Assembly: GCF_963576675.1 (NCBI RefSeq)
Contig: NC_088917.1
Location: forward strand, 17,326,001 to 17,390,000
Direction: 5' to 3'
Length of the DNA stretch: 64,000 nucleotides
Source: Euphorbia lathyris
Lineage: Eukaryota; Streptophyta; Magnoliopsida; Malpighiales; Euphorbiaceae
Positions 5,190 through 19,027 of the stretch are shown piece by piece (positions within the stretch are counted from its first letter, which is position 1; the number at the start of each line of letters is the position of its first letter). The notes beneath the pieces were generated by a model. That model searched no databases, was not told the origin of the DNA, and saw only the letters and a list, made by a program, of their open reading frames with translations. A program made the position numbers and the translations under genes.

Positions 5190-5882
5190 TTTTTCACCAA
5201 TAAATTAATTACAAACAAATAAATTATGATTTTCACCAATAAATTTATAATATTAAATACCAAGTTTAGATGGACACAATTTTTACCAGTAAATTAAGTC
5301 TAAAGTTCTCACAATTGTATTCTCAAAAACTCAACAATTGTATTCTCATATTTTTATTGTATTCTTCAAAAATGTCAAGTTCGGATGGATACAATTTTTA
5401 CCAATCGAGCGTAAATGCTATTAGAAATATGTGGGATGAAGCAGATGAGCAAATGGAACTTGAGTTCTTGCAACAAATATCACAACCACCTCAACGTAGA
5501 AAATATGTAGATCAAAATCGTGAAGAAGGTGCATCACGTTTGTATAAGGACTACTTTGCTGACCAACCAGTATACGATGATACTTTTTTCGAGAAAATTT
5601 CACATGAGTAGACCGTTGTTCATACGTATTGTGGAGGCATTGAGGAATCACACAGTGTATTTCCAATAGAGGATTGATGCAACAAAGAAGAAAGGACTTA
5701 CTCCACTTCAGAAATGCACAGAGGCGCTTCGTATGGTTGCATATGGAGAAGCCGTTGATCGTGATCGAAGATGAGTACATTAGAATTGCTGAGTGTACTG
5801 CATTTGAATGTCTTGAAATTTTTTGTCATGGTATTGTAAGGTGTTCAGAGCAGTTTATATGAGGAAGCCTAATGCTGCTGAT

Positions 5883-6263
5883 TTTTTTATTTTTTTGAAA
5901 GCTATTTGACATTTGCTATATTATAGAAAGCTATTTGCTATATATATAAATCAAAGCTATTTGCTATATTATAGAGCTCCATTCAATCCAAATTATTTAT
6001 TTTTTATTTTTTTAAATGACATTTGCATCGGCCGTTTAAAAGGGCCGATGCAAATGAGACTACATTTGCATCAGCCCTTTAAAAAATGTGATGCAAATGC
6101 CACATCATTTGCATCGGCCCTTTAAAAAATGTGATGCAAATGCTACATCATTTGCATCGACCCTTTAAAAAATGTGATGCAAATGCTACATCATTTGCAT
6201 CGGCCAACGGCCGATGCAAATGGCCCTAAACGGCCGATGCAAATGGCCATTTTTCTACTAGTG
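5883..6263. mobile_element. CACTA-like insertion fragment inside the Harbinger transposase
   Basis: The right end reads TTTTTCTACTAGTG, the reverse complement of a CACTA terminus (CACTAGTAGAAAAATGG). Inward of it lie subterminal repeats (6022-6245). The left end is only AT-rich and shows no CACTA terminus. Transposase homology stops at 5882 and resumes at 6264, so the insertion interrupts it cleanly. Confidence 0.68.
6022..6245. repeat. subterminal tandem and inverted repeats (GCATCGGCC type)
   Basis: Alternating copies of ATTTGCATCGGCC and its complement GGCCGATGCAAAT, joined by TTTAAAAAATGTGATGCAA spacers. There are about four direct units of roughly 45-50 bp. CACTA elements typically carry subterminal transposase-binding repeats of this kind. 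Confidence 0.75.
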
Positions 6264-7879: not shown

Positions 7880-9226
7880 CATAATATTCAGAATGAGCTA
7901 ATACTTTTGTTAGCGAGCGATGTTAAGAGCAAAATTGTTTGAGAGGCAAAATATTTTTCTGTTATTCTTGATTGTACTCTCGATATTAGTCATGAAGAAC
8001 AAATGAGTCTCATTCTGAGATTTGTTAATGTTTCTACTAGTCCCATAACGGTGGAAGAGTTTTTCATTGGATTTTTGAAAGTTATTGAAACAATAGAGGG
8101 TGCACTTTTCCTTGAGCTTAAAGATGCTATTAGAAATCTAAAACTTGATTTTAGTGATATAAGCGGGCAAGGTCATGACAATGGTTCCAATATGAGGGGA
8201 TAATACAAAGGTGTAAGTAGTAGGGTACTAAAAGAGTATCATAGAGCATTTTACTCTCCGTGTGATTGTCATTCTCTTAATCTTGCACTTTGAGATATGG
8301 CCATGAGTTCTATTCAAGCTAAATCATTTTATGGAGTCGTACAAAGGATTTATAGATTATTCTTTGGCTCAACAAAACGATGGGAGGTTCTTAAATCTTA
8401 TGTGAAAGATCAGAATGGGAAAGGGCTTACACTAAAGTCATGGTCAGATACATGTTAGGAAAGTTGTGTTGCTAGTGTAAGGGCAATAAGATTTCAAGCT
8501 CCTCAGATAAGAGATGCATTACTTCATCTAGTAGAATATAGTGCTGATGCAACCACAACAAGTGATGCAAGTTCTTTAGCAAATTATGAACTTCAAAACT
8601 TTGATTTCCTTGTTGGCATAGTTATTTGGTTTGAAATTCTACAAAAAGTGAATAAAGTTAGCAAGATTCTCCAAAGTAAGGATATGAATATTGAGGCATG
8701 TATTAATCTCTTGCAAGATCTCATTCTTTTTTTTTGAAGAGTATAGAAATAATGGATTTGAAATTGCAAAAAGTGAAGCTAAGAAGATTGCTTTAGACAT
8801 GGAGGTTGAACCCACTTTTCGCGAAACTCGTATTCGTCTTAAAAAAGGTTTTTTTATGGGAATACCAGGGATGAACCAATTCAAGTGGCTGAAAAATCTT
8901 TTGAAGTCAATTATTTTTAAATATAATTGATAATGCTCCCTCTTCGCTCACTACAAGATTTGAGCAATTTAAAAATATGAAGATGTTTTTGGATTCTTAT
9001 TTAATTTGAGCAAGTTGAAAGCTATGGAGGATGAGAGAATGAAGCATACGTATACTACACTTGAGATTTTTATGAAAGATGGAGATGATTCAGATATTGA
9101 TGGTCTTGACTTATTTTCAGAATTGTAATTGTTGAGAAAATCATTACTAGATAACTTAACCAAACCAGTTAAAGTGTTAGATTACATCAAGAATTTGCAT
9201 CTTCATTTTTCTAATACTTGGGTTGC
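7880..9226 (+). pseudogene. hAT-like transposase (TTF/DUF4371 type), central part, broken
   Basis: The reading matches plant TTF-type zinc-finger (ZMYM1-like) transposases in order: [50 protein letters not shown] near 8160-8200, a CDCHSLNLAL-type motif near 8260, FGVVQRIYRLFFGSTKRWEVL near 8330-8390, GFEIAKSEAKKIALDMEVEP near 8755-8810, and DIDGLDLFSEL near 9095. The N-terminal zinc finger is missing and stops and frameshifts are frequent. The frame is cut at 9226 by the Athila element and resumes at 18622. The GTTGC at 9222-9226 is repeated at 18622-18626. Confidence 0.85.
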
Positions 9227-11023
9227 TGATAGGGGCGTTTCGTCCCTATCTTTTAGCGTGATTTATGGTTTAATTTTGGATGAAATAAATAAGTTTAATT
9301 GCAAAAATAGAGTGTTTTAATAAAATAGCAAAATAAAAATAAACTCCGTACTTTCGGTTAATTTTTCCTTATTTTTGATTAATTCAGAAAATAAAACGTC
9401 AAGCTAACTCGGCTCTCGAGAATTGTATTTCAGGTACGAGCAAGAAGTGAAAATCTACCAAAATACGCGGGGCGTGGAACACTTAGTCAGAAATAATTGC
9501 CTTATCCACAGGTACCACGTGGGATCTACTCAGCAATACACGGGGCGTATCAACAACCACGCGAGGCGTGGAACATGTGTCAGAAATGATAAGCCTAATC
9601 CTGAAAGTCAGACTGCATGGTCTCCCTGAGTCAACTACCCTACGCGGGATGTACCACCTTACACGCGGGGCGTGTAAGGAAGTTCTTCAATCCAAAAAGC
9701 TCAGAGACTCATTTATGCGGGGCGTGCCTCAGCTACGCAGTGCGTAAATGACCCAATTCAAGCAATAAAATCTCAAAAACTCAAACACGCGAAGCGCATC
9801 CCAGTCTACGCGGGGCGTGATTGAGACAACAAGATCTGGAATTGGTCCACATGTAGGAGATTTCTGACGGAATGGGCAATTACGCGGGGCGTACTACACC
9901 ATACGCGAGGCGTATCATGGGAAATCTACAGAAAATCATGTTCCTCCATGCTTGTATCTTATGAAATTACAATTTTGCCCTAGCTTGATGTGTATAAATA
10001 GGAGTGACTAGCACTCATTTAGATATCTTTTTTGACCATAAACCGTAGACTTTGTATACACCTTTTGTTATACAATTGTTATTTTAGTTTGAGATTTTAG
10101 TTTACATAGCAATTCTCTTCCACCTTGAGAGCTTGTTCGTTGATTCCGGCATTCCGTCAAAGTTCCGTTCCTTCTCCGTCCACCAAGCTCGAAAGCTCCA
10201 CCTCCAAGTCCTAAGAGACGGCCTTGAGTCCGGTTAGCTAGTTCCGAGGGTGGATTCTTCCCTTTTCACTTGCTAATTAGCTTGTACTCTTCCTATGTAC
10301 TAGGCTTGGTTGTATTTCATATTTACATTCTCCATATTTATAATTTATGATTCATGATCTCTTTCTCTATATTTGTGTTTGATGTTTGCTACTTGTTTTG
10401 ATACTCGTAATTGATTATTGTGTAGGAGAACGCGATTTCCGACGCCATTCGGGCTATCTTTAGGGATTCATATAGGTGTTGCCTTACCGGAAGTGACGCT
10501 CCAGAAACCATAGGAATTGACAAACCACGGAACTTACGGGCCCTAATTTCTGGTCCCAAGCATTAGACACGCCTTGACTGGGAACCACGTAGTCTAAGTA
10601 CTTCACGGATCGGTCACACTACACGTAGTCGTCATTGGAAGAGTAAATCATTAACCGTTTATATATTGAGAGTCATTGTTTGTCATATTTATAACTTACC
10701 GCATCCCATATCATTTCGTAGAGTTTTGCTATATAAATTTGTCTCACCCGTAGTTAGGAGTAGTTTGTAGTTGCTCCCCGAATCAACTCAAAGTATTCAC
10801 CGCCTAGATAACGTATAAAACCGAGTTGTCTAATACTTGTAGTTATAAATCCCGTGGATTCGATACCCGGTCTTAACCGGATTATTACTTGATACGACGG
10901 GGTACACTTGCCCTTAAGTAGCCGCGTCTAGTAGAATCTAAGAACATGTGCATCCCTTACACTTATATATTCTCACCCATCATCCACACTCTATTCACAA
11001 CCTACTAGGCGTAAGCCCCATCA
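9227..11023 (+). repeat. 5' LTR of the Athila-type element (1797 bp)
   Basis: Starts TGATAGGGGCGTTTCG and ends AAGCCCCATCA. It contains 11 copies of the 11-bp motif ACGC-NNN-GCGT or close variants between 9465 and 9913. It is 21 bp shorter than the 3' LTR because one motif unit present at 17053-17073 is absent after 9475. Confidence 0.93.
9465..9913 (+). repeat. paired ACGC-NNN-GCGT motif array, 5' LTR
   Basis: Motif starts: 9465 (its partner is deleted), 9538 and 9559, 9642 and 9663, 9715 and 9735, 9787 and 9808, 9882 and 9903. Within a pair the starts are 20-21 bp apart and both copies have the same orientation (purine-rich centre GGG, GAG, AGG). Arms ACGC and GCGT are conserved more than the centre. 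Confidence 0.9.
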
Positions 11024-11029
11024 AGTTTT

Positions 11030-11047
11030 TGGCGCCGTTGCCGGGGA
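11030..11047 (+). other. primer binding site, tRNA-Asp type
   Basis: TGGCGCCGTTGCCGGGGA, six bases after the 5' LTR. It is complementary to the 3' end of plant tRNA-Asp, the primer typical of Athila/Tat elements. Confidence 0.9.
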
Positions 11048-11190
11048 TTTATAATTTCTTGCAATATTAGACAAAAACGTTTTATTGTTAGTCTAAGCAT
11101 TATTTTTGTATAAATTGTTTATATATACTCTTTATACTTTTTACTAACTATATTCTTTCTTGTTTATACTCCATTTTATTTATTTATTTT

Positions 11191-12614
11191 ATGCACACCC
11201 GATCTCGGAGTGATTCTCTCCTTCTTATTGATCTTGAAATTGAACGTACTCTTTGTAAGATTCGGAGAGAGAAAATGGCAAACCTCAACAATAAAGCTAA
11301 CCAGCCCGAGGTCAACCAAAGGCCACCGGTGCAACCCGTGAATAACAACCGCAATGGTGGAGGCAATGACATGCGCTCGATGATGGAGATTCTTGCTCCG
11401 TACCGTCCTCAAAATCGCAATGGAATCTTTGCCCCCACCATCCCGGCCAACACATATGAAATCAAGACTAGCATGATCCAACTCATCCAACAGCTCGACC
11501 AGTTCGGAGGAGAACCTCATGAAAACCCTAACGAGCATTTAGATAAATTTCTTATGTGTGCCGAAACTTCTTAGCAAAACGGTGTACCGGTTGAGGCCGT
11601 CTGACTAAAGTTGTTTCCTTTCTCTTTGATAGGACAAGCATTGGAGTGGTTGCACTCGTTGGAGGCAGGTTCAATTACGTCATGGGTGGAACTTGAGAAG
11701 GAGTTCCTTTCTTACTACTTCCCGCCTTCTAAAACAGTCAAGTTGAGGAACGACATCACTACCTTCCGGCAGCTCGAACACGAAGCCCTTCATGCGGCTT
11801 GGGCAAGATTTCGGAAGTTGCTTCGAAGCTGCCCGCACCATGATATCCCCAAGCACGATTTGGTAAGCACTTTTTTTATCACGGATTAACACCTACTAAT
11901 CGTGCCACTGTGGATTCCGCAGCAGGTGGGGACCTATTTAGGAAGTCGTCCTGTGAAGCATATGAGCTCATTCACGAGCTCGCAAGGAAAAGCGTACAGC
12001 GGCAAGAAGATCGGCTTGCCGGACCTTCGCGACATCAAACGTTTACCGTGGAGAAAGAGGCTCCGAAAAGTTCCATGGCAGAAATGAATAAAAAACTTGA
12101 CGCTTTGATCGCCCAGTTGAGCCTTAACAAAGTTGCACAGATCCTGATGTGCAATCATTGTGGTGGAGACCATGACGGACTTAATTGCCAAGCCGGTAGT
12201 CCTTTCGCCGGCGACACCGAAAATGTAAGTTACATAGGAGGCAATCCAAGGTATAATCCTAACCCGAACTCCTATTCACACCACCATAATAATAATAACG
12301 GCGGATGGAGGCCTAGATACCAACACCCGAACTTGTCATATGGCAATAATAATAATGTGTTGAGGCCCCCATCCGACTTTGATCAAGAATATCGGGAAAA
12401 CGGGCTAGGGCAATCACAAGCCATGCCCGGTAATCGGAACGCTCCGCCTCCCGACAATGTGCATGGCCAGTCGGTCACGTCTCTGTTGAAGGATATATTA
12501 ACTCGTCTTTCCGATAGTGAGGTGTTTTGCAGGGACCTTAGCCGCCAAGTAGCCCACTTGAATCGTCAGCAACAGGAGAGGCCATTAGGAACCCTCCCGG
12601 CAAACACCGAGTAG
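11191..12614 (+). pseudogene. Athila gag, two stops and one frameshift
   Basis: The first ATG is at 11191; a second (MANLNNKANQ) lies at 11275. The retrotransposon gag domain is recognisable at 11610-11890: LFPFSLIGQALEWLHSLE, ITSWVELEKEFLSYYFPPSK, LRNDITTFRQLEHEALHAAW, FRKLLRSCPHH. In-frame stops occur at 11572-11574 and 11600-11602, and a frameshift at a run of T near 11871-11877. The second part (from about 11890) reads TVDSAAGGDLF, then a CX2CX3HX4C zinc knuckle (CNHCGGDHDGLNC) near 12150-12190, an Asn-rich linker and a C-terminal coil. Gag would normally form the particle that packages element RNA. Confidence 0.88.
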
Positions 12615-12976
12615 AACCCGCGGGGCAAAAATAGAGAGTCCGGACAGGCGATAACGCTCCTAAATAGTAGAAGTTCAGACCCGTCAAGTTCCAACTCGGA
12701 CAACCTGCAGTAACCCGCCGCATGAGAAAGTCCAGCTACTTCGACTCTAAACGTAGCATCGGTTTGAATTTCTCAAACCCTGTGTTTATATGTATCATAA
12801 CCATTTTTCAACTTATTTTTATTTGTTCTCTCTTTTATGTTATTTTTAGTTCTCTCTCTTTTATGCTATTTGTTTTCTATTTTTATTTTTACCTTTATTT
12901 TTATTTTTATTCTATTTTTATTTTTCATAAATCAAAAGAAAAACAAATCCCACTTTTAATCCAAAGAAAATAAGCC

Positions 12977-13161
12977 ACGCAGGGCGTACACACCTATACG
13001 TCCCGCGTATCTGCGTCTCTGAGCCCTTTGCTCGTAGTAGAAGGCATGTTACGCGAGGCGTTTACCCTTCCACGCCCCGCGTAATGTTCGACAATTAGTT
13101 ACCGCAAAATAAAAGCCACGTGGAAGGACACACGGGACGTGCCCTAGGGCACGCCTCGCAT
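12977..13161. repeat. motif cluster 1: three inverted pairs
   Basis: Pairs start at 12977/12998, 13051/13072 and 13130/13151. In each, the first copy has a purine centre (ACGCAGGGCGT or similar) and the second a pyrimidine centre (ACGCCCCGCGT or similar). The within-pair offset is exactly 21 bp and pairs are 74 and 79 bp apart. Confidence 0.92.
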
Positions 13162-13438
13162 ATCCTCGGGGAGTTGTGAATTACAACTCCCCATGGCAGC
13201 CTTTCCCTCTCTCACCTTTCCCATCACTCTCTCCTCTTCCCCAAAAATCTTTCCCACTTCTCCACTCCACCTCCTCTCTCCTCCAATCACCATTCACCTT
13301 TTCAAATTCAAAACTTCCCTCTTTATTATTTTTGTAACCACCCTATTAATTGTTAATTAAAATAATAAAAACATTAAATAAGCAATTAAAACCCATAAAA
13401 ATTCAAAAAACTCCTTAAAACCGAAAATTGTTCATTCC

Positions 13439-13616
13439 ACGCGGGGCGTACCTCTATTTACGCCCCGCGTCCTCGCCCCTCTCCCTTCAAATTAGGGTTA
13501 GGAGGTGCAATACGCGAGGCGTGCTCTCCCGCGCGCCCCGCGTATGGTACCATTTGCGTGTCAAATAATGGGCAGGAGGTGGGATACGCGTGGCGTGGCC
13601 CCTTCACGCCTCGCGT
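13439..13616. repeat. motif cluster 2: three inverted pairs
   Basis: Pairs start at 13439/13460, 13512/13533 and 13586/13606 (offsets 21, 21, 20); pairs are 73 and 74 bp apart. Same inverted arrangement as cluster 1. Confidence 0.92.
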
Positions 13617-13757
13617 ACGCCCTGGGAATCCGAGTTTTACTTGGATTCCCCACTCCTCCCCTACAAATAGTTTCCCTTTTTCCCCTTCTTCTTCCTCACA
13701 ACTCATTCTCACTTCCCACACCCTTCCTACACACTCTCTCAATCCCTCACTCACACC

Positions 13758-14960
13758 ATGGTAAGACGAAAACAGACTGCCGACATGTGCCCCCCGCGGT
13801 CCACTCGGGCCCGTACCTTCCGCACCCAAAATCAACAACAACCACCACCACCCGAACGGGAGGAAACACCACCACTCACCCGACAATACCGGGCTCCTTT
13901 CCATCTTCTCACCGAGGAGGAAGCCCAAAACTACCAAACACTATCCACCGCCCACATGATGGAGCTTCCATACATTGAACGTAGCGTTCTCGATCGCTAC
14001 AACGTTGGAGGTTCCTTCGAGGACCGCCTTCGTGCTCTAAATTGGCTCGATCATTATCGGGCACGCCACCACGTCTACTCTTCATTGGTCGTGGAATTCT
14101 ACACCTCCCTAGAATCCAACAATGTTTCGGGAGCCGCCCTCTTCAACTTCCGCCTTCACAACCAACCTTTCACCATTGACACCCAATGGCTCCGCAATCA
14201 CTTCACCAAACAAGTGGAGGCGGGCATTACACATTGGCCCGAGGGTGTCTCCCCTCGTGATTTTTGGACCTCCATCACCGGGTTCGATGCTTACGATATC
14301 TCCAACCTCCGCCCGGTATGCATCCGTGATCCAATCCTCCAACTTCTCCACCGCTTCATCTCCTTCTACTTCTCGGGGAAGTCCGAGTCCACCAAGGTCA
14401 CTAAGCACGAGCTTTTGGCCCTTTATTATTGTGCCAACGGCCTCACCTACGACCTCTCCTACCTCGTGGCCGTCCAACTCCACCATATGCCCACCCGAAA
14501 ACGTGGGAGAATCGGGTTGGGCCATCTTATCACCATCTTCGCCACCTCCGCTCTTGGCGAAGCCGCCCTTGATCGCCTTCCAAGTCTTGAGCCTCGGCCC
14601 TTGGAGAAAAATGCCTTCAAATCTCTTAAGCGCCCTACCTCCGGCCCGGGTGAAACTTCGGGGGCGGCCCACTCAAACGAGGAGGAGGGCTCGGACTCGG
14701 ATATGGGCCTCAATTTTAGTCCACCACCCCTCCATGACTTCAACTCCCTTTATGCTCGGTTGGATATTTTGGAGGACAACCAACGTCGAGATCGGGCCCA
14801 CTTCGACTCCCACTTCGATGCCATCGATGCTCGCCTCGACGCCTCCGAGGTTTAAAGGCGTAAAGATCGGGCCCATCTCGATGCTCGCTTCGATGCCCTC
14901 ACCAACTCCTTCGCCTCCTACTTCAACATCCACGGAAATCCTCCTCCGCCTCAACCATAG
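13758..14960 (+). CDS. Athila-type ORF, putative plant transposon protein
   Basis: Begins at ATG 13758 in a good context (ACCATGG) and runs 365 codons to TAA at 14853-14855. The same frame then continues to TAG at 14958-14960 with a continuation of the C-terminal repeat, so the TAA looks like a later nonsense change. The N-terminus is basic and Pro/Gln-rich. A central domain of about 230 residues has LNWLDHYRARHHVYSSLVVEF, FTIDTQWLRNHF and GRIGLGHLITIFATSAL, resembling the putative plant transposon protein domain of Athila-type elements. Then comes an acidic Ser/Glu tract (EEEGSDSD) and C-terminal repeats (DSHFDAIDARLDAS, AHLDARFDAL). Its function is unknown. It is GC-rich, unlike the neighbourhood, and stays open although gag is broken. 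Confidence 0.75.
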
Positions 14961-16794
14961 TTTCCATTTTTTTTTATGTTTTCCTTTGTTTTGTATTTTC
15001 TTTTTTCGTGTTTATTTCAATTCGTTTCGTTTTAGGTGTGTCCTTTGTTATTTTTGTTATCTTTTTCTATTTTTATTGTGCTTTCTTTTCTATCTTAATA
15101 TATTTATGATTTCCGTTTACGTTTCGTTTGTTTATTTTTCTCAATTTCTGCGCCCTTAATAACCTTCACGCAGGGCGTACTCCCTTTTACGCCCCGCGTG
15201 ATCGCCATTTTTCTTGTATAATTCGCCCAGAAACTCAAACACGCAGGGCGCCCTTCTTAGTGCGCCCCGCGTATTTGAGTCTCTGGTCAAAACACACTTA
15301 AAACATACCTCTTACGCGGGGCGCTCCCCTGGGCACGCCTCACGTAAGACCTGACCTTCAAGGGTCCTATTTTTAATTTAAATTCCATCTTTATTTTTGT
15401 TTTTGTTTTTCTTTCCTTTTGCGACGTCCTTGGAATAGACGTCATTTTAATAACGCGGAGGGCCGTGCAACCTCGCACTTACCGTTTGTTTTGCACTAAC
15501 AAAAACAAAAATAAACAACAAAATAATTAAACTAATTTATTGATTCTTTAATTTTTCCGACACACTACCTCCCTTGGAAATTAATTAAAGTTCCGTTATT
15601 TGTCCTTAAATGTAAAGACATTAATACAAAGGATCGGTTTTAGTAAGAAATTTTAGTCTTAATTCTGAAGCTCTAGAATTTATGCAAAGACTAGGTTCGT
15701 ACTAAACAAAAACATTGAGTCCTAACCCAAAGGTTATCTCTATAATGAAATTTAAAAAGGCAATAAAAACGGGATAGTTGAAAATTTGACGAGAACTTGA
15801 ACGTACACAATTTAACCCGAAATTTTGTGAGATATTTTTGAGCCTAAAAGAGTTCGCACGAGAACTCTATTTCTTTCACAATTTTTCGAGAGCTTTGACT
15901 TCACTCGACTCATAGAGTTTGCACCTAATACCGGGTTAAGTACACTTATTTTGGTTAAAATGGTAATAGATGATAAAACGAACCCACTTAGTCTAATTCT
16001 TTTCTTAAATTATTTTTCTCGTTTTCATCAACCTCTAAGAAACCCCCTCGAGCCTATTAACCGACTTTTCTTGTTAATACCCTTTTAACAATTAACCCCT
16101 TTTCCTCGTGTTTAAATACCAACAAAATTAAATCGCACCCGAAATAAGCCAAGGCCTTGATAAGTAAGCACTATAAGCTTTCGAAATCGTTTTTGTGTCG
16201 CTCCCAAAACAAAAAGAAAAAGGAGAATACAATAAAGAGCAAAAGGCATTCTCAAGCTCCACCCGAGCAATTTTGAGTTATATTTTACAAACTTGCCAAG
16301 ACCCAAATAAAAACATGGTGCGATCATCAAAATGGTGTTTAAACTCGAGCTCTTAAAAATTAACCACTAAAAAGCCACCCACATTACAACCCCCCTCCGG
16401 GTTCATTTTTAATATTGTCTAAACCATAACATAGGAGGAAAAACCCGGATGAAAATGCAAACTCAAAGTGATCTCGAGTAAGTGCAAAGAATAGTGCGAA
16501 AACACCGATCCACCAAATTTTGAGCGTAAGAGTGAAATCCCTTGGTGAGGTACTATCGGGTTCTCAAAAGATAATCGACCCCCGTTAATATTGCCTATGA
16601 AATTTGATCATGGAGGTTTCAAGCAAGTTTTGGTCACTCATTTGTTTGCGTAGGTACTTACCGAAAACTTTGTATAAAACTTTAGCTTCGGAATCACGCA
16701 CTTGGTAAAACCAACCGACGGTTTGTTTCTTAATAATCTCAATCCCTTGTCTTTCGATTTCTTTTACTTGAGGACAAGTAAAACTTTAAAGTCC
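14961..16794. other. Athila internal 3' spacer
   Basis: Starts with a T-rich tract (14965-15140), then motif cluster 3, then AT-rich sequence without a convincing frame up to the polypurine tract. Confidence 0.7.
15168..15345. repeat. motif cluster 3: three inverted pairs
   Basis: Pairs start at 15168/15189, 15241/15262 and 15314/15335. Every within-pair offset is 21 bp and every pair-to-pair spacing 73 bp. Confidence 0.92.
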
Positions 16795-16801
16795 GAGGAG
16801 G
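16795..16801 (+). other. polypurine tract of the Athila-type element
   Basis: GAGGAGG two bases before the 3' LTR, preceded by TTGAGGACAAGTAAAACTTT, the arrangement usual at the 3' end of Athila internal regions. Confidence 0.7.
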
Positions 16802-16803
16802 TT

Positions 16804-18621
16804 TGATAGGGGCGTTTCGTCCCTATCTTTTAGCGTGATTTATGGTTTAATTTTGGATGAAATAAATAAGTTTAATTGCAAAAATAGAGTGTTTTAATAA
16901 AATAGCAAAATAAAAATAAACTCCGTACTTTCGGTTAATTTTTCCTTATTTTTTATTAATTTAGAAAATAAAACGTCAAGCTAACTCGGCTCTCGAGAAT
17001 TGTATTTCAGGTACGAGCAAGAAGTGAAAATCTACCAAAATACGCGGGGCGTATCACTCCTCACGCGGGGCGTGGAACACTTAGTCAGAAATAATTGCCT
17101 TATCCACATGTACCACGTAGGATCTACTCAGCAATACGCGAGGCGTATCAACAACCACACGAGGCGTGGAACATGTGTCAGAAATGATAAGCCTAATCCT
17201 GAAAGTCAGACTGCATGGTCTCCCTGAGTCAACTACCCTACTTGGGACGTACCACCTTACACGCGGGGCGTGTAAGGAAGTTCTTCAATCCAAAAAGCTC
17301 AGAGACTCATTTACGCGGGGCGTGCCTCACCTACGCAGTGCATAAAAGACCCAATTCAAGCAATAAAATCTCAGAAACTCAAACACGCGAAGCGCATCCC
17401 AGTCTACGCAGGGCGTGATTGAGACAACAAGATCTGGAATTGGTCCACATACAGGAGATTTCTGACGGAATGGGCAATTACGCGGGGCGTACTACACCAT
17501 ACGCGAGGCGTATCATGGGAAATCTGCAGAAAATCATGTTCCTCCATGCTTGTATCTTATGAAATTACAATTTTGCCCTAGCTTGATGTGTATAAATAGG
17601 AGTGACTAGCACTCATTTAGGTATCTTTTTTGACCATAAACCTTAGACTTTGTATACACCTTTTGTTATACAATTGTTATTTTAGTTTGAGATTTTAGTT
17701 TACATAGCAATTCTCTTCCACCTTGAGAGCTTGTTCGTTGATTCCGGCATTCCGTCAAAGTTCCGTTCCTTCTCCGTTCACCAAGCTCGAAAGCTCCACC
17801 TCCAAGTCCTAAGAGACGGCCTTGAGTCCGGTTAGTTAGTTCCGAGGGTGGATTCTTCCCTTTTCACTTGCTAATTAGCTTGTACTCTTCCTATGTACTA
17901 GGTTTGGTTGTATTTCATATTTACATTCTCCATATTTATAATTTATGATTCATGATCTCTTTCTCTATATTTGTGTTTGATGTTTGCTACTTGTTTTGAT
18001 ACTCGTAATTGATTATTGTGTAGGAGAACGCGATTTCCGACGCCATTCGGGCTATCTTTAGGGATTCATATAGGTGTTGCCTTACCGGAAGTGACGCTCT
18101 GGAAACCGTAGGAATTGACCAACCACGGAACTTACGGGCCCTAATTTCTGGTCCCAAGCATTAGACACGCCTTGACTAGGAACCACGTAGTCTAAGTACT
18201 TCACGGATCGGTCACACTACACGTAGTCGTCATTGCAAGAGTAAATCATTAACCGTTTATATATTGAGAGTCATTGTTTGTCATATTTATAACTTACCGC
18301 ATCCCATATCATTTCGTAGAGTTTTGCTATATAAATTTGTCTCACCCGTAGTTAGGAGTAGTTTGTAGTTGCTCCCCGAATCAACTCAAAGTATTCACCG
18401 CCTAGATAACGTATAAAACCAAGTCGTCTAATACTTGTAGTTATAAATCCCGTGGATTCGATACCCGGTCTTAACCGGATTATTACTTGATACGATGGGG
18501 TACACTTGCCCCTAAGTAGCCGCGTCTAGTAGAATCTAAGAACACGTGCATCCCTTACACTTATATATTCTCACCCATCATCCACACTCTATTCATAACC
18601 TACTAGGCGTAAGCCCCATCA
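16804..18621 (+). repeat. 3' LTR of the Athila-type element (1818 bp)
   Basis: Direct repeat of 9227-11023 with about 35 substitutions and one extra 21-bp motif unit. Its motif pairs start at 17042/17063, 17136/17157, 17240/17261, 17313/17333, 17385/17406 and 17480/17501, all in direct orientation. Confidence 0.93.
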
Positions 18622-19027
18622 GTTGCTTACATGATTATATTGACTATACCGGTTACAGTAGCTACTGCCGAAAGAAGTTTCTCTAAGCTGAAGTTAATAA
18701 AAACTTATCTTCGATCAACTATGTCACAAGAGAGATTGAACGATTTGGCCATATTATCTATTGAGAAGAAAGTCTTAGTTGAACTCCATTATAGCGATTT
18801 AATTAGAGAATTAGCACATACAAGAGCAAGAATAATAATAATTTCTTAGCTTTAGGTTATTATTACTTGATTTTGATTGTTATATCAAGACTAATATATT
18901 GTTTGAATTGTAAATAATATACTCGTTTTATTATTTCGTATTTATTATTTCTAAAATAATATTAATCTTTTTTTAGAAAGAAGTATAGAATTTGTCTAGG
19001 GCCTCCAAAATGTTGGAGACACCCCTG
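18622..19027 (+). pseudogene. hAT-like transposase C-terminus (dimerisation domain) and 3' terminus
   Basis: Resumes the gene broken at 9226. The open frame 18631-18849 reads LTIPVTVATAERSFSKLKLI, TYLRSTMSQERLNDLAILSI and ends in TAG, the typical hAT C-terminal dimerisation domain. After AT-rich sequence the element appears to end GTTGGAGACACCCCTG at 19027, whose complement CAGGGGTGTCTCCAAC looks like a hAT inverted terminus. The 5' terminus is not found. Confidence 0.82.

Follow-up and report, generated by a model that had tools for sequence, protein, structure and literature searches.

An 11-bp palindrome, ACGC-NNN-GCGT (ACGCNNNGCGT), is arrayed in the non-coding parts of an Athila-type long terminal repeat (LTR) retrotransposon of Euphorbia lathyris, and its sites are paired two helical turns apart. 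The element occupies positions 9227-18621 of the 64-kb stretch of contig NC_088917.1 analyzed here (positions 17,326,001 to 17,390,000, hereafter the window), and similar arrays are found in elements that appear to belong to two further Ty3/gypsy lineages. On the best reading, with a probability of about 0.58, the arrays are promoter-proximal and serve LTR and internal promoters, their phased sites being bound by a dimeric regulator that probably comes from the host. Each palindrome would be the site of a DNA-binding dimer, and two sites 21 bp apart would form the working unit, with most units following one another at whole-turn distances, often 52 or 73 bp. The LTR promoter would be driven by one such array and, in the Athila-type family, the internal promoter of an accessory open reading frame (ORF), called ORF-X here, by a second one made of mirror-image pairs. 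The sites would most likely be read by a transcription factor or chromatin protein of the host, put to use by the elements.

Exact copies of ACGCNNNGCGT number 25 in the window, all within 9465-17511, against a mean of 0.06 over 100 shuffles. If up to two mismatches are allowed in the arm letters, five arrays hold 42 matches: 25 exact, 13 with one mismatch and four with two. Two of these last four (9637 and 13549) are out of register, which leaves about 40 sites; the sequence-only reading had counted over 40, a number reached only with decayed copies included. Two arrays lie in U3, on the forward strand. That of the 5' LTR (9465..9913) consists of same-orientation pairs at offsets of 20-21 bp, and that of the 3' LTR (17042..17511) of six same-orientation pairs, one of which has a badly decayed first site (17240). 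Both members of an LTR pair have purine-rich centres, as had been described. The first pair of the 5' LTR lacks its second site: 21 bp, comprising one motif, are absent at 9465-9475 by comparison with 17042-17073 in the 3' LTR. Arrays can thus lose units between repeats.

The other three arrays are internal and not assigned to a strand, and in all nine of their pairs a purine-rich centre is followed by a pyrimidine-rich one, so that the pairs are inverted. Cluster 1 (12977..13161) has pairs at 12977/12998, 13051/13072 and 13130/13151, with 74 and 79 bp between pairs. Cluster 2 (13439..13616), directly upstream of the ORF-X TATA position, has pairs at 13439/13460, 13512/13533 and 13586/13606, with 73 and 74 bp between them, and cluster 3 (15168..15345), 3' of ORF-X, has pairs at 15168/15189, 15241/15262 and 15314/15335, 73 bp apart. 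The nine inverted pairs in three clusters, 73-79 bp apart, are therefore as first reported, in starts and in centres. The 21-bp offset was borne out as well, except in 9715/9735, its 3' LTR twin 17313/17333, and 13586/13606, all at 20 bp. With the third pair of cluster 1 also off-phase (79 bp), phasing in the window is strong but not absolute. The proposal that these are sites for a dimeric protein fits the conserved half-sites, the two-turn offset and the mostly whole-turn spacing. No exact site falls in the gag region or in ORF-X, and a protein-coding origin is not favoured for arrays that lie outside both. Two overlapping ORFs of 157 and 159 amino acids at 13458-13978 do cover sites and are taken as chance.

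The same spacing dominates genome-wide. Sites were counted in the 1.02-Gb genome with the reversed pattern as control, and pairs at offsets of 11-19, 21, 23-49, 51-53 and 72-74 bp. The motif itself has 78,679 exact single sites and the control pattern 2,137. Exact pairs number 19,187 at 21 bp, 8,997 at 51-53 bp and 23,209 at 72-74 bp (control 0 in each case), with 127 at 11-19 bp together (control 0) and 1,742 at 23-49 bp together (control 8). Among the counted offsets, those near two, five and seven helical turns dominate, and chance or a CpG-rich composition is ruled out by the shuffles and the reversed-pattern controls. Pairs with GGA or AGA centres were found 454 times (control 0). In 23 LTR-bearing stretches, neighbouring sites with at most one arm mismatch also lie 30, 41, 83-85, 94-95 and 104 bp apart. 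The periodicity of 183 intervals peaks at 10.5 bp with a vector strength of 0.91, most of them being inherited members of the 21/52/73 classes; the 22 intervals outside these classes peak at 10.75-11 bp (vector strength 0.76-0.77), and the helical-period signal is suggestive only. On contig C1, three sets of sites (4965654/4968394, 18868412/18870940 and 23092166/23095181) lie 2.5-3.0 kb apart and show 21-bp-period runs or 18-bp spacing. These are perhaps the LTR pairs of small non-autonomous elements.

The arrays also have a consistent position. In both LTRs of the window element, the array precedes a TATA box, TATAAATA, on the forward strand (9993..10000 and 17591..17598), 79 bp past the last motif; that of the 5' LTR marks a putative promoter. 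Within the element, ORF-X (13758..14855, forward strand, 365 amino acids) matches the ATHILA ORF-1 family PF03078 at 24.5 bits (cut-off 20.2) over residues 106-222 only, and PF20167 at 25.6 bits, under its cut-off of 45; a homology search returned 2,826 candidates, none at E <= 0.001. Of 8,189 first-look candidate copies in the genome, 112 hits were scored, and 54 of these, the window copy included, have no internal stop in the match. The best 30, with the window copy among them, were treated as loci; they are the top hits and not a random sample. Turned to one direction, they share a single array layout with 263 exact sites. Exact pairs at 20-22 bp are inverted purine-to-pyrimidine in 75 cases out of 76 and not in one, with 17 offsets of 20 bp and 59 of 21 bp. 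Here, as in the genome-wide count, related copies keep the 21-bp offset. In 24 of the 30 loci, a TATAAA or TATATA stands 90 to 96 bp ahead of the ORF-X start. Two others have a TATA at -122 and -137, and the final 200 bp lack one in the remaining four. The window copy is one of these four and has TACAAATA at the presumed TATA position (13662..13669, forward strand). The order of array, TATA box and start codon is a promoter layout inside the element, which suggests an internal promoter for ORF-X. Nothing found here supports the packaging factor that had been offered as another possibility: arrays upstream of TATA boxes in U3 and, for one internal copy, of a TATA about 95 bp before an ORF, have promoter geometry. 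Silencing and activation by a bound factor would look alike in sequence. Three equal-scoring ORF-X copies on contig C10 (38735299, 38742946 and 38750593) lie exactly 7,647 bp apart and are perhaps a tandem array of an element.

Arms and spacing persist while spacers diverge. In U3, this was measured in seven elements with both LTRs (14 LTRs, two of the elements with 700 bp of U3 only), where differences within an element are post-insertion and those between elements include time in the active lineage. Arm CpGs differ at rates of 0.093 post-insertion and 0.097 between elements (ratio 1.0), and other arm letters at 0.015 (3/201) and 0.033 (40/1,206; ratio 2.2). The corresponding values are 0.045 and 0.201 for centres (ratio 4.5), 0.029 and 0.283 for spacers (ratio 9.8) and 0.018 and 0.148 for other non-CpG letters (ratio 8.3). 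Spacers and the non-CpG background thus have an eight- to tenfold excess between elements, and arms a one- to twofold one. Upstream of ORF-X in the 30 loci, mean column conservation is 0.949 in arms, 0.946 in centres and 0.849 in spacers, with 0.855 for other columns within 20 bp and 0.890 for all other columns; CpG columns reach 0.951 in arms versus 0.858 elsewhere (p 7e-7). Downstream of ORF-X, where there are three sites only, the means are 0.940 for arms, 0.919 for centres, 0.913 for spacers and 0.884 for neighbours. The expectation that arms evolve more slowly than centres is therefore true of the LTRs, where they also outlast the spacers, but not of the internal arrays, in which centres are kept about as well and, upstream of ORF-X, spacers less well.

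The array is not confined to one Athila family. Five 10-kb stretches around pair sites (L040-L044) were drawn from the first listed pair places in the first 3 Mb of C1, partly for isolation or odd centres, and are not a random sample. L043 and L044 belong to the LTR family of the window element. The other three have no blastn match to that element longer than 60 bp, except for 116 bp at the LTR end in L040. In L042, sites at offsets of 21, 51, 21, 52, 21, 52 and 21 bp (three exact, the others with one or two arm mismatches) are followed by a TATA box and an exact primer binding site that we take to be of the initiator methionine transfer RNA (tRNA-iMet) type, and gag (PF03732) is present. An Athila-type primer site 3.6 kb past the iMet one belongs to a second element nearby; the array is assigned to the iMet element because the order of array, TATA box and iMet site is repeated in L046. 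L041 is a 3' LTR of the L042 family (752 bp at 94.8%) beside an integrase (PF24626, 52 bits), with PF00665 just below its cut-off at 31.3 bits. These iMet-primed elements appear chromovirus-like. Eight further loci (L046-L048 and L050-L054, L050 and L051 overlapping) make up a fourth group, called D. Among seven of them that were scanned, L046 has the iMet primer site without mismatch and L054 has it with one, and L046, L048, L053 and L054 share 81-168 bp of LTR end with L042. The array orientation of group D is opposite to that of L042 relative to transcription.

L040 has offsets of 21, 73, 52, 21, 52 and 21 bp, so that the 21/52 alternation is common to it, its relative L055 and the iMet-primed L042, in each case at up to two arm mismatches. 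L055, whose gag is 95% identical to that of L040, encodes reverse transcriptase (RT), RNase H, a second RNase H-like domain (RVT_3) and integrase in the gypsy pol order, a set that presumably marks the Tat lineage. A second array in L055 begins 14 bp past the last pol-frame ORF, with sites from 5646 to 5885. Between pol and the 3' LTR of this Tat-type relative, the reverse strand encodes a plant mobile domain protein (L056:896-1729, PF10536, 69.9 bits) and three ORFs without a Pfam match (L056:429-977, L055:6076-6327 and L055:6493-6813). The array occurs upstream of a TATA box in what appear to be three Ty3/gypsy lineages, Athila-type, Tat-type and iMet-primed. Because different lineages of this genome use the same grammar, a host factor is the most likely reader, and a host protein is judged likelier than an element protein since some array-bearing stretches gave no ORF-X match. 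VOZ and NAC sites were considered as candidates for such a factor and set aside, as they do not fit the spacing, and a text search of the literature for GCGT/ACGC dimer sites gave no candidate.

It may be that the likeness between lineages is partly one of descent. Intervals of 35-46 bp were compared in register for one Tat-type, three L042, five Athila and nine D sequences. Mean similarity within groups is z 6.61 for D, 3.73 for Athila and 1.91 for L042, and the six cross-group rows have means of -0.44 to 1.12. Values above 2.5 occur in 4/15 Athila-L042, 4/27 L042-D and 1/45 Athila-D comparisons, and these cases point to some shared sequence. Each of the four groups has an interval of 39-41 bp, the sequence of which is little kept between them. 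A stretch resembling CAGRRNSTCA (at most two mismatches), a motif defined post hoc and by eye from the same sequences, stands 13 bp before the first site of 6/17 Athila, 4/6 Tat-type, 3/4 L042 and 1/16 D pairs. Genome-wide, its exact form occurs 13 bp before a site 5,075 times (2,495 + 2,580; control 0) and at wider gaps 5,546 times (2,745 + 2,801; control 0 and 1). Among the wider-gap places listed, most are 43-45 bp long, the length that would result from reaching the second site of a pair instead of its first. This accessory element is a fixed part of many copies, but its count is as compatible with descent as with selection. For most of the array, motif and spacing appear to be shared beyond recognizable descent, and an old shared module or an exchange of U3 regions is possible.

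Several observations weigh against phased sites for a dimeric host regulator. Spacing is not everywhere whole-turn: neighbour distances of 16, 17 and 47 bp occur as single cases in the 23 LTR-bearing stretches, and the ORF-X loci have out-of-phase distances of 58-59, 64, 78-80 and 99-101 bp when all site pairs, not neighbours only, are taken. Intervals between pairs are not all of 39-41 bp, lengths of 19, 60-63 and 72-74 bp being present too. The internal array of the Tat-type element is mixed rather than all inverted (centres CGG/CCC, ACG/CAC and GGG/GGG). Past cluster 3 in the window, no ORF of at least 90 amino acids was found before the 3' LTR, and no TATAAA follows ORF-X in 11 of 13 forward-strand loci over the 1.5 kb examined in each. 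Centres in the internal arrays are kept as well as arms (0.946 and 0.949 upstream of ORF-X), and downstream of it they are kept no better than spacers (p 0.52). In U3, the arms were chosen by their commonest letters, and the comparisons between elements depend on one another. The remaining consensus CpGs of U3 (36 columns) differ at 0.093 and 0.111 (ratio 1.2), much like arm CpGs, so that the CpG letters alone show no special constraint. With the accessory element at -13 in three groups, inheritance or exchange may account for some of the likeness between lineages. Finally, the internal inverted pairs fold well as RNA, a feature that phased dimer sites do not need.

That folding is the starting point for an alternative in which the selected feature is an RNA or cruciform structure, the paired palindromes forming a hairpin in the element transcript; passages of PMC5311732 describe the targeting of palindromes in maize Sirevirus LTRs by small RNAs, and hairpin formation has been proposed for these palindromes. 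Clusters 2 and 3 fold with z of -6.58 and -8.85 against shuffles (cluster 1 was not folded), compared with -2.99 for the LTR array, and the nearly universal inversion of exact internal pairs (75/76) would be explained. Pairs in the LTRs, however, are not inverted, so that their centres cannot pair. Compensation does not protect the pairing: at the nine internal pair sites, two-sided changes keep it in seven cases and not in three, and one-sided changes break it in 144, give G-U in 87 and Watson-Crick pairs in 36. The majority centre is itself unpaired at several sites, such as GAG/CCC in 25/28, and the fixed helical offsets are left unexplained. A structural role is thus improbable. Much the same low standing is given to a functionless tandem repeat, its 73-bp unit having multiplied by duplication and passed between families through exchanged U3 segments. 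Duplication does happen, as near-identical units show (interval z of 13.5 in L047 and 3.1-3.6 in L042), one LTR of the window element has lost 21 bp relative to the other, and the accessory element common at -13 suggests some common descent. Arms nevertheless persist while spacers and intervals diverge, and an interval length recurs without its sequence. In five related Athila LTRs, pairs of intervals from the same LTR have z of at most 2.5 in 37/43 comparisons. In the D-type loci L046 and L054, the LTR ends and primer site are as in L042 but the array has the opposite orientation. A plain decayed tandem repeat is unlikely.

An element-encoded reader is a more substantial, if still doubtful, alternative. 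ORF-X or an accessory protein of the Tat-type elements would target the sites and act in trans across families, either in the manner of VANC or as an activator of its own promoter. ORF-X is flanked by arrays on both sides, one of which precedes its TATA box, and is often open (54/112). For the Tat-type relative, with its antisense plant mobile domain ORF, the possibility is real because passages of PMC11963269 describe antisense accessory ORFs with predicted DNA binding in Retand elements. On the other side, ORF-X had no tblastn match (E 1e-5) in the array-bearing stretches L040-L044, of which L043 holds both LTRs and the others may not span whole elements. It has no relative among solved structures at E <= 1, and its single-sequence AlphaFold2 model (mean predicted local distance difference test score, pLDDT, 39.7) is too poor to show a DNA-binding fold. 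Any trans effect would also need to cross lineages. A wider version, tentative at best, is a regulon in which the three lineages share one helically phased cis-code read by one such element-supplied factor, which would switch on or de-silence LTR promoters as well as its own, other families, including non-autonomous ones, using it in trans.

The window element itself has LTRs of 1,797 and 1,818 bp with TG...CA ends, located by a blastn self match and with the ends read directly: the 5' LTR at 9227..11023 and the 3' LTR at 16804..18621, both on the forward strand and 96.9% identical over 1,818 aligned columns. The 5-bp target duplication GTTGC flanks the element on both sides (9222-9226 and 18622-18626). 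After the 5' LTR, an 18-bp primer binding site, TGGCGCCGTTGCCGGGGA (11030..11047, forward strand), is presumably of the Athila type, matching tRNA-Asp. With that primer site and the ATHILA ORF-1 match of ORF-X, the element has two traits of the Athila lineage. The gag region (11191..12614, forward strand) has three ORFs, the second of which contains Retrotrans_gag (PF03732, 11611-11889). The element looks non-autonomous because no pol domain was found by Pfam among the six ORFs scanned. To the right of the 3' target duplication is an open frame (18622-18860) that, by eye, we take to resemble the C-terminal dimerization part of a hAT-type transposase, and the element may have inserted into this hAT-like frame.

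Known systems offer partial parallels to these arrays. The U3 stress boxes of Tnt1 and the heat elements of ONSEN are reportedly repeats of sites for host factors and precede a TATA box; each is a single family, and we know of no pair grammar in them that crosses lineages. In Arabidopsis VANDAL elements, as described in passages of PMC5735166, VANC targets the motifs YAGTATTAY or AGTTGTMC, with binding and demethylation demonstrated. There, as here, short motifs are repeated in the non-coding parts of an element that encodes a further protein, and the VANDAL arrays evolve by repeat formation. However, VANDAL is a DNA transposon and its motifs are not palindromic. In L055/L056, a repeat array follows closely on the pol frames and the stretch ahead of the 3' LTR has antisense ORFs, a layout resembling that of Retand (PMC11963269), but the Retand repeats are family-specific with no assigned function, and the passages concerned name no shared palindromic motif. 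Sunflower Athila elements have clade-specific methylation patterns, and in the relevant part of PMC12844716 the authors ask whether element-encoded proteins shape them. A fluorescence in situ hybridization oligonucleotide for a lettuce tandem repeat, ls350, begins with GTACGCGGGGCGTGGG in the portion of PMC11598091 that lists it; the motif may be present in lettuce repeats too, or this may be a coincidence.

The closest precedent, which answers the earlier remark that no described element has such an arrangement, is the RM box of Sireviruses (Bousios et al. 2010, PMC2829016). In the parts of that paper drawn on here, short palindromic, CpG-bearing motifs are repeated in the upper LTR, ahead of its TATA box, and further copies lie ahead of the env-like gene (77/79 linker copies precede ENV). 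The motif is kept while its flanks diverge. The authors suggest that it may be regulatory and that env may have an internal promoter, and they call RM Sirevirus-specific. The palindrome described here is likewise repeated in U3 upstream of TATA, with diverging flanks. The RM core, however, is CGG-CCG (with one exception) rather than ACGC-NNN-GCGT, and Sireviruses are Ty1/copia elements, whereas the gag of the window element (PF03732) and the pol order of L055 are those of Ty3/gypsy. The described parts give no pair rule or helical spacing for RM, both of which are present here, and nearly all RM linker copies precede ENV, whereas these precede ORF-X, which may or may not be env-like, and also lie 3' of it. 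No Ty3/gypsy version with a helical grammar common to three lineages was found in the literature searched, nor any paper on this motif in a retrotransposon in the open-licence PMC literature. In a single genome, tens of thousands of sites come under one rule of an 11-bp palindrome, 21-bp pairing and mostly whole-turn stacking, and this rule predicts that half a helical turn inserted between paired sites should break function. At stake is how retrotransposons of different ancestry share control signals, whether read by the host or by an element, and the factor, once found, would link one protein to the control of many elements, be it by silencing or by activation. Finding it would also give a test of the internal promoter proposed for Sirevirus env-like genes. 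The array works like the RM boxes, but with its other core and its Ty3/gypsy setting it is not the Sirevirus RM.

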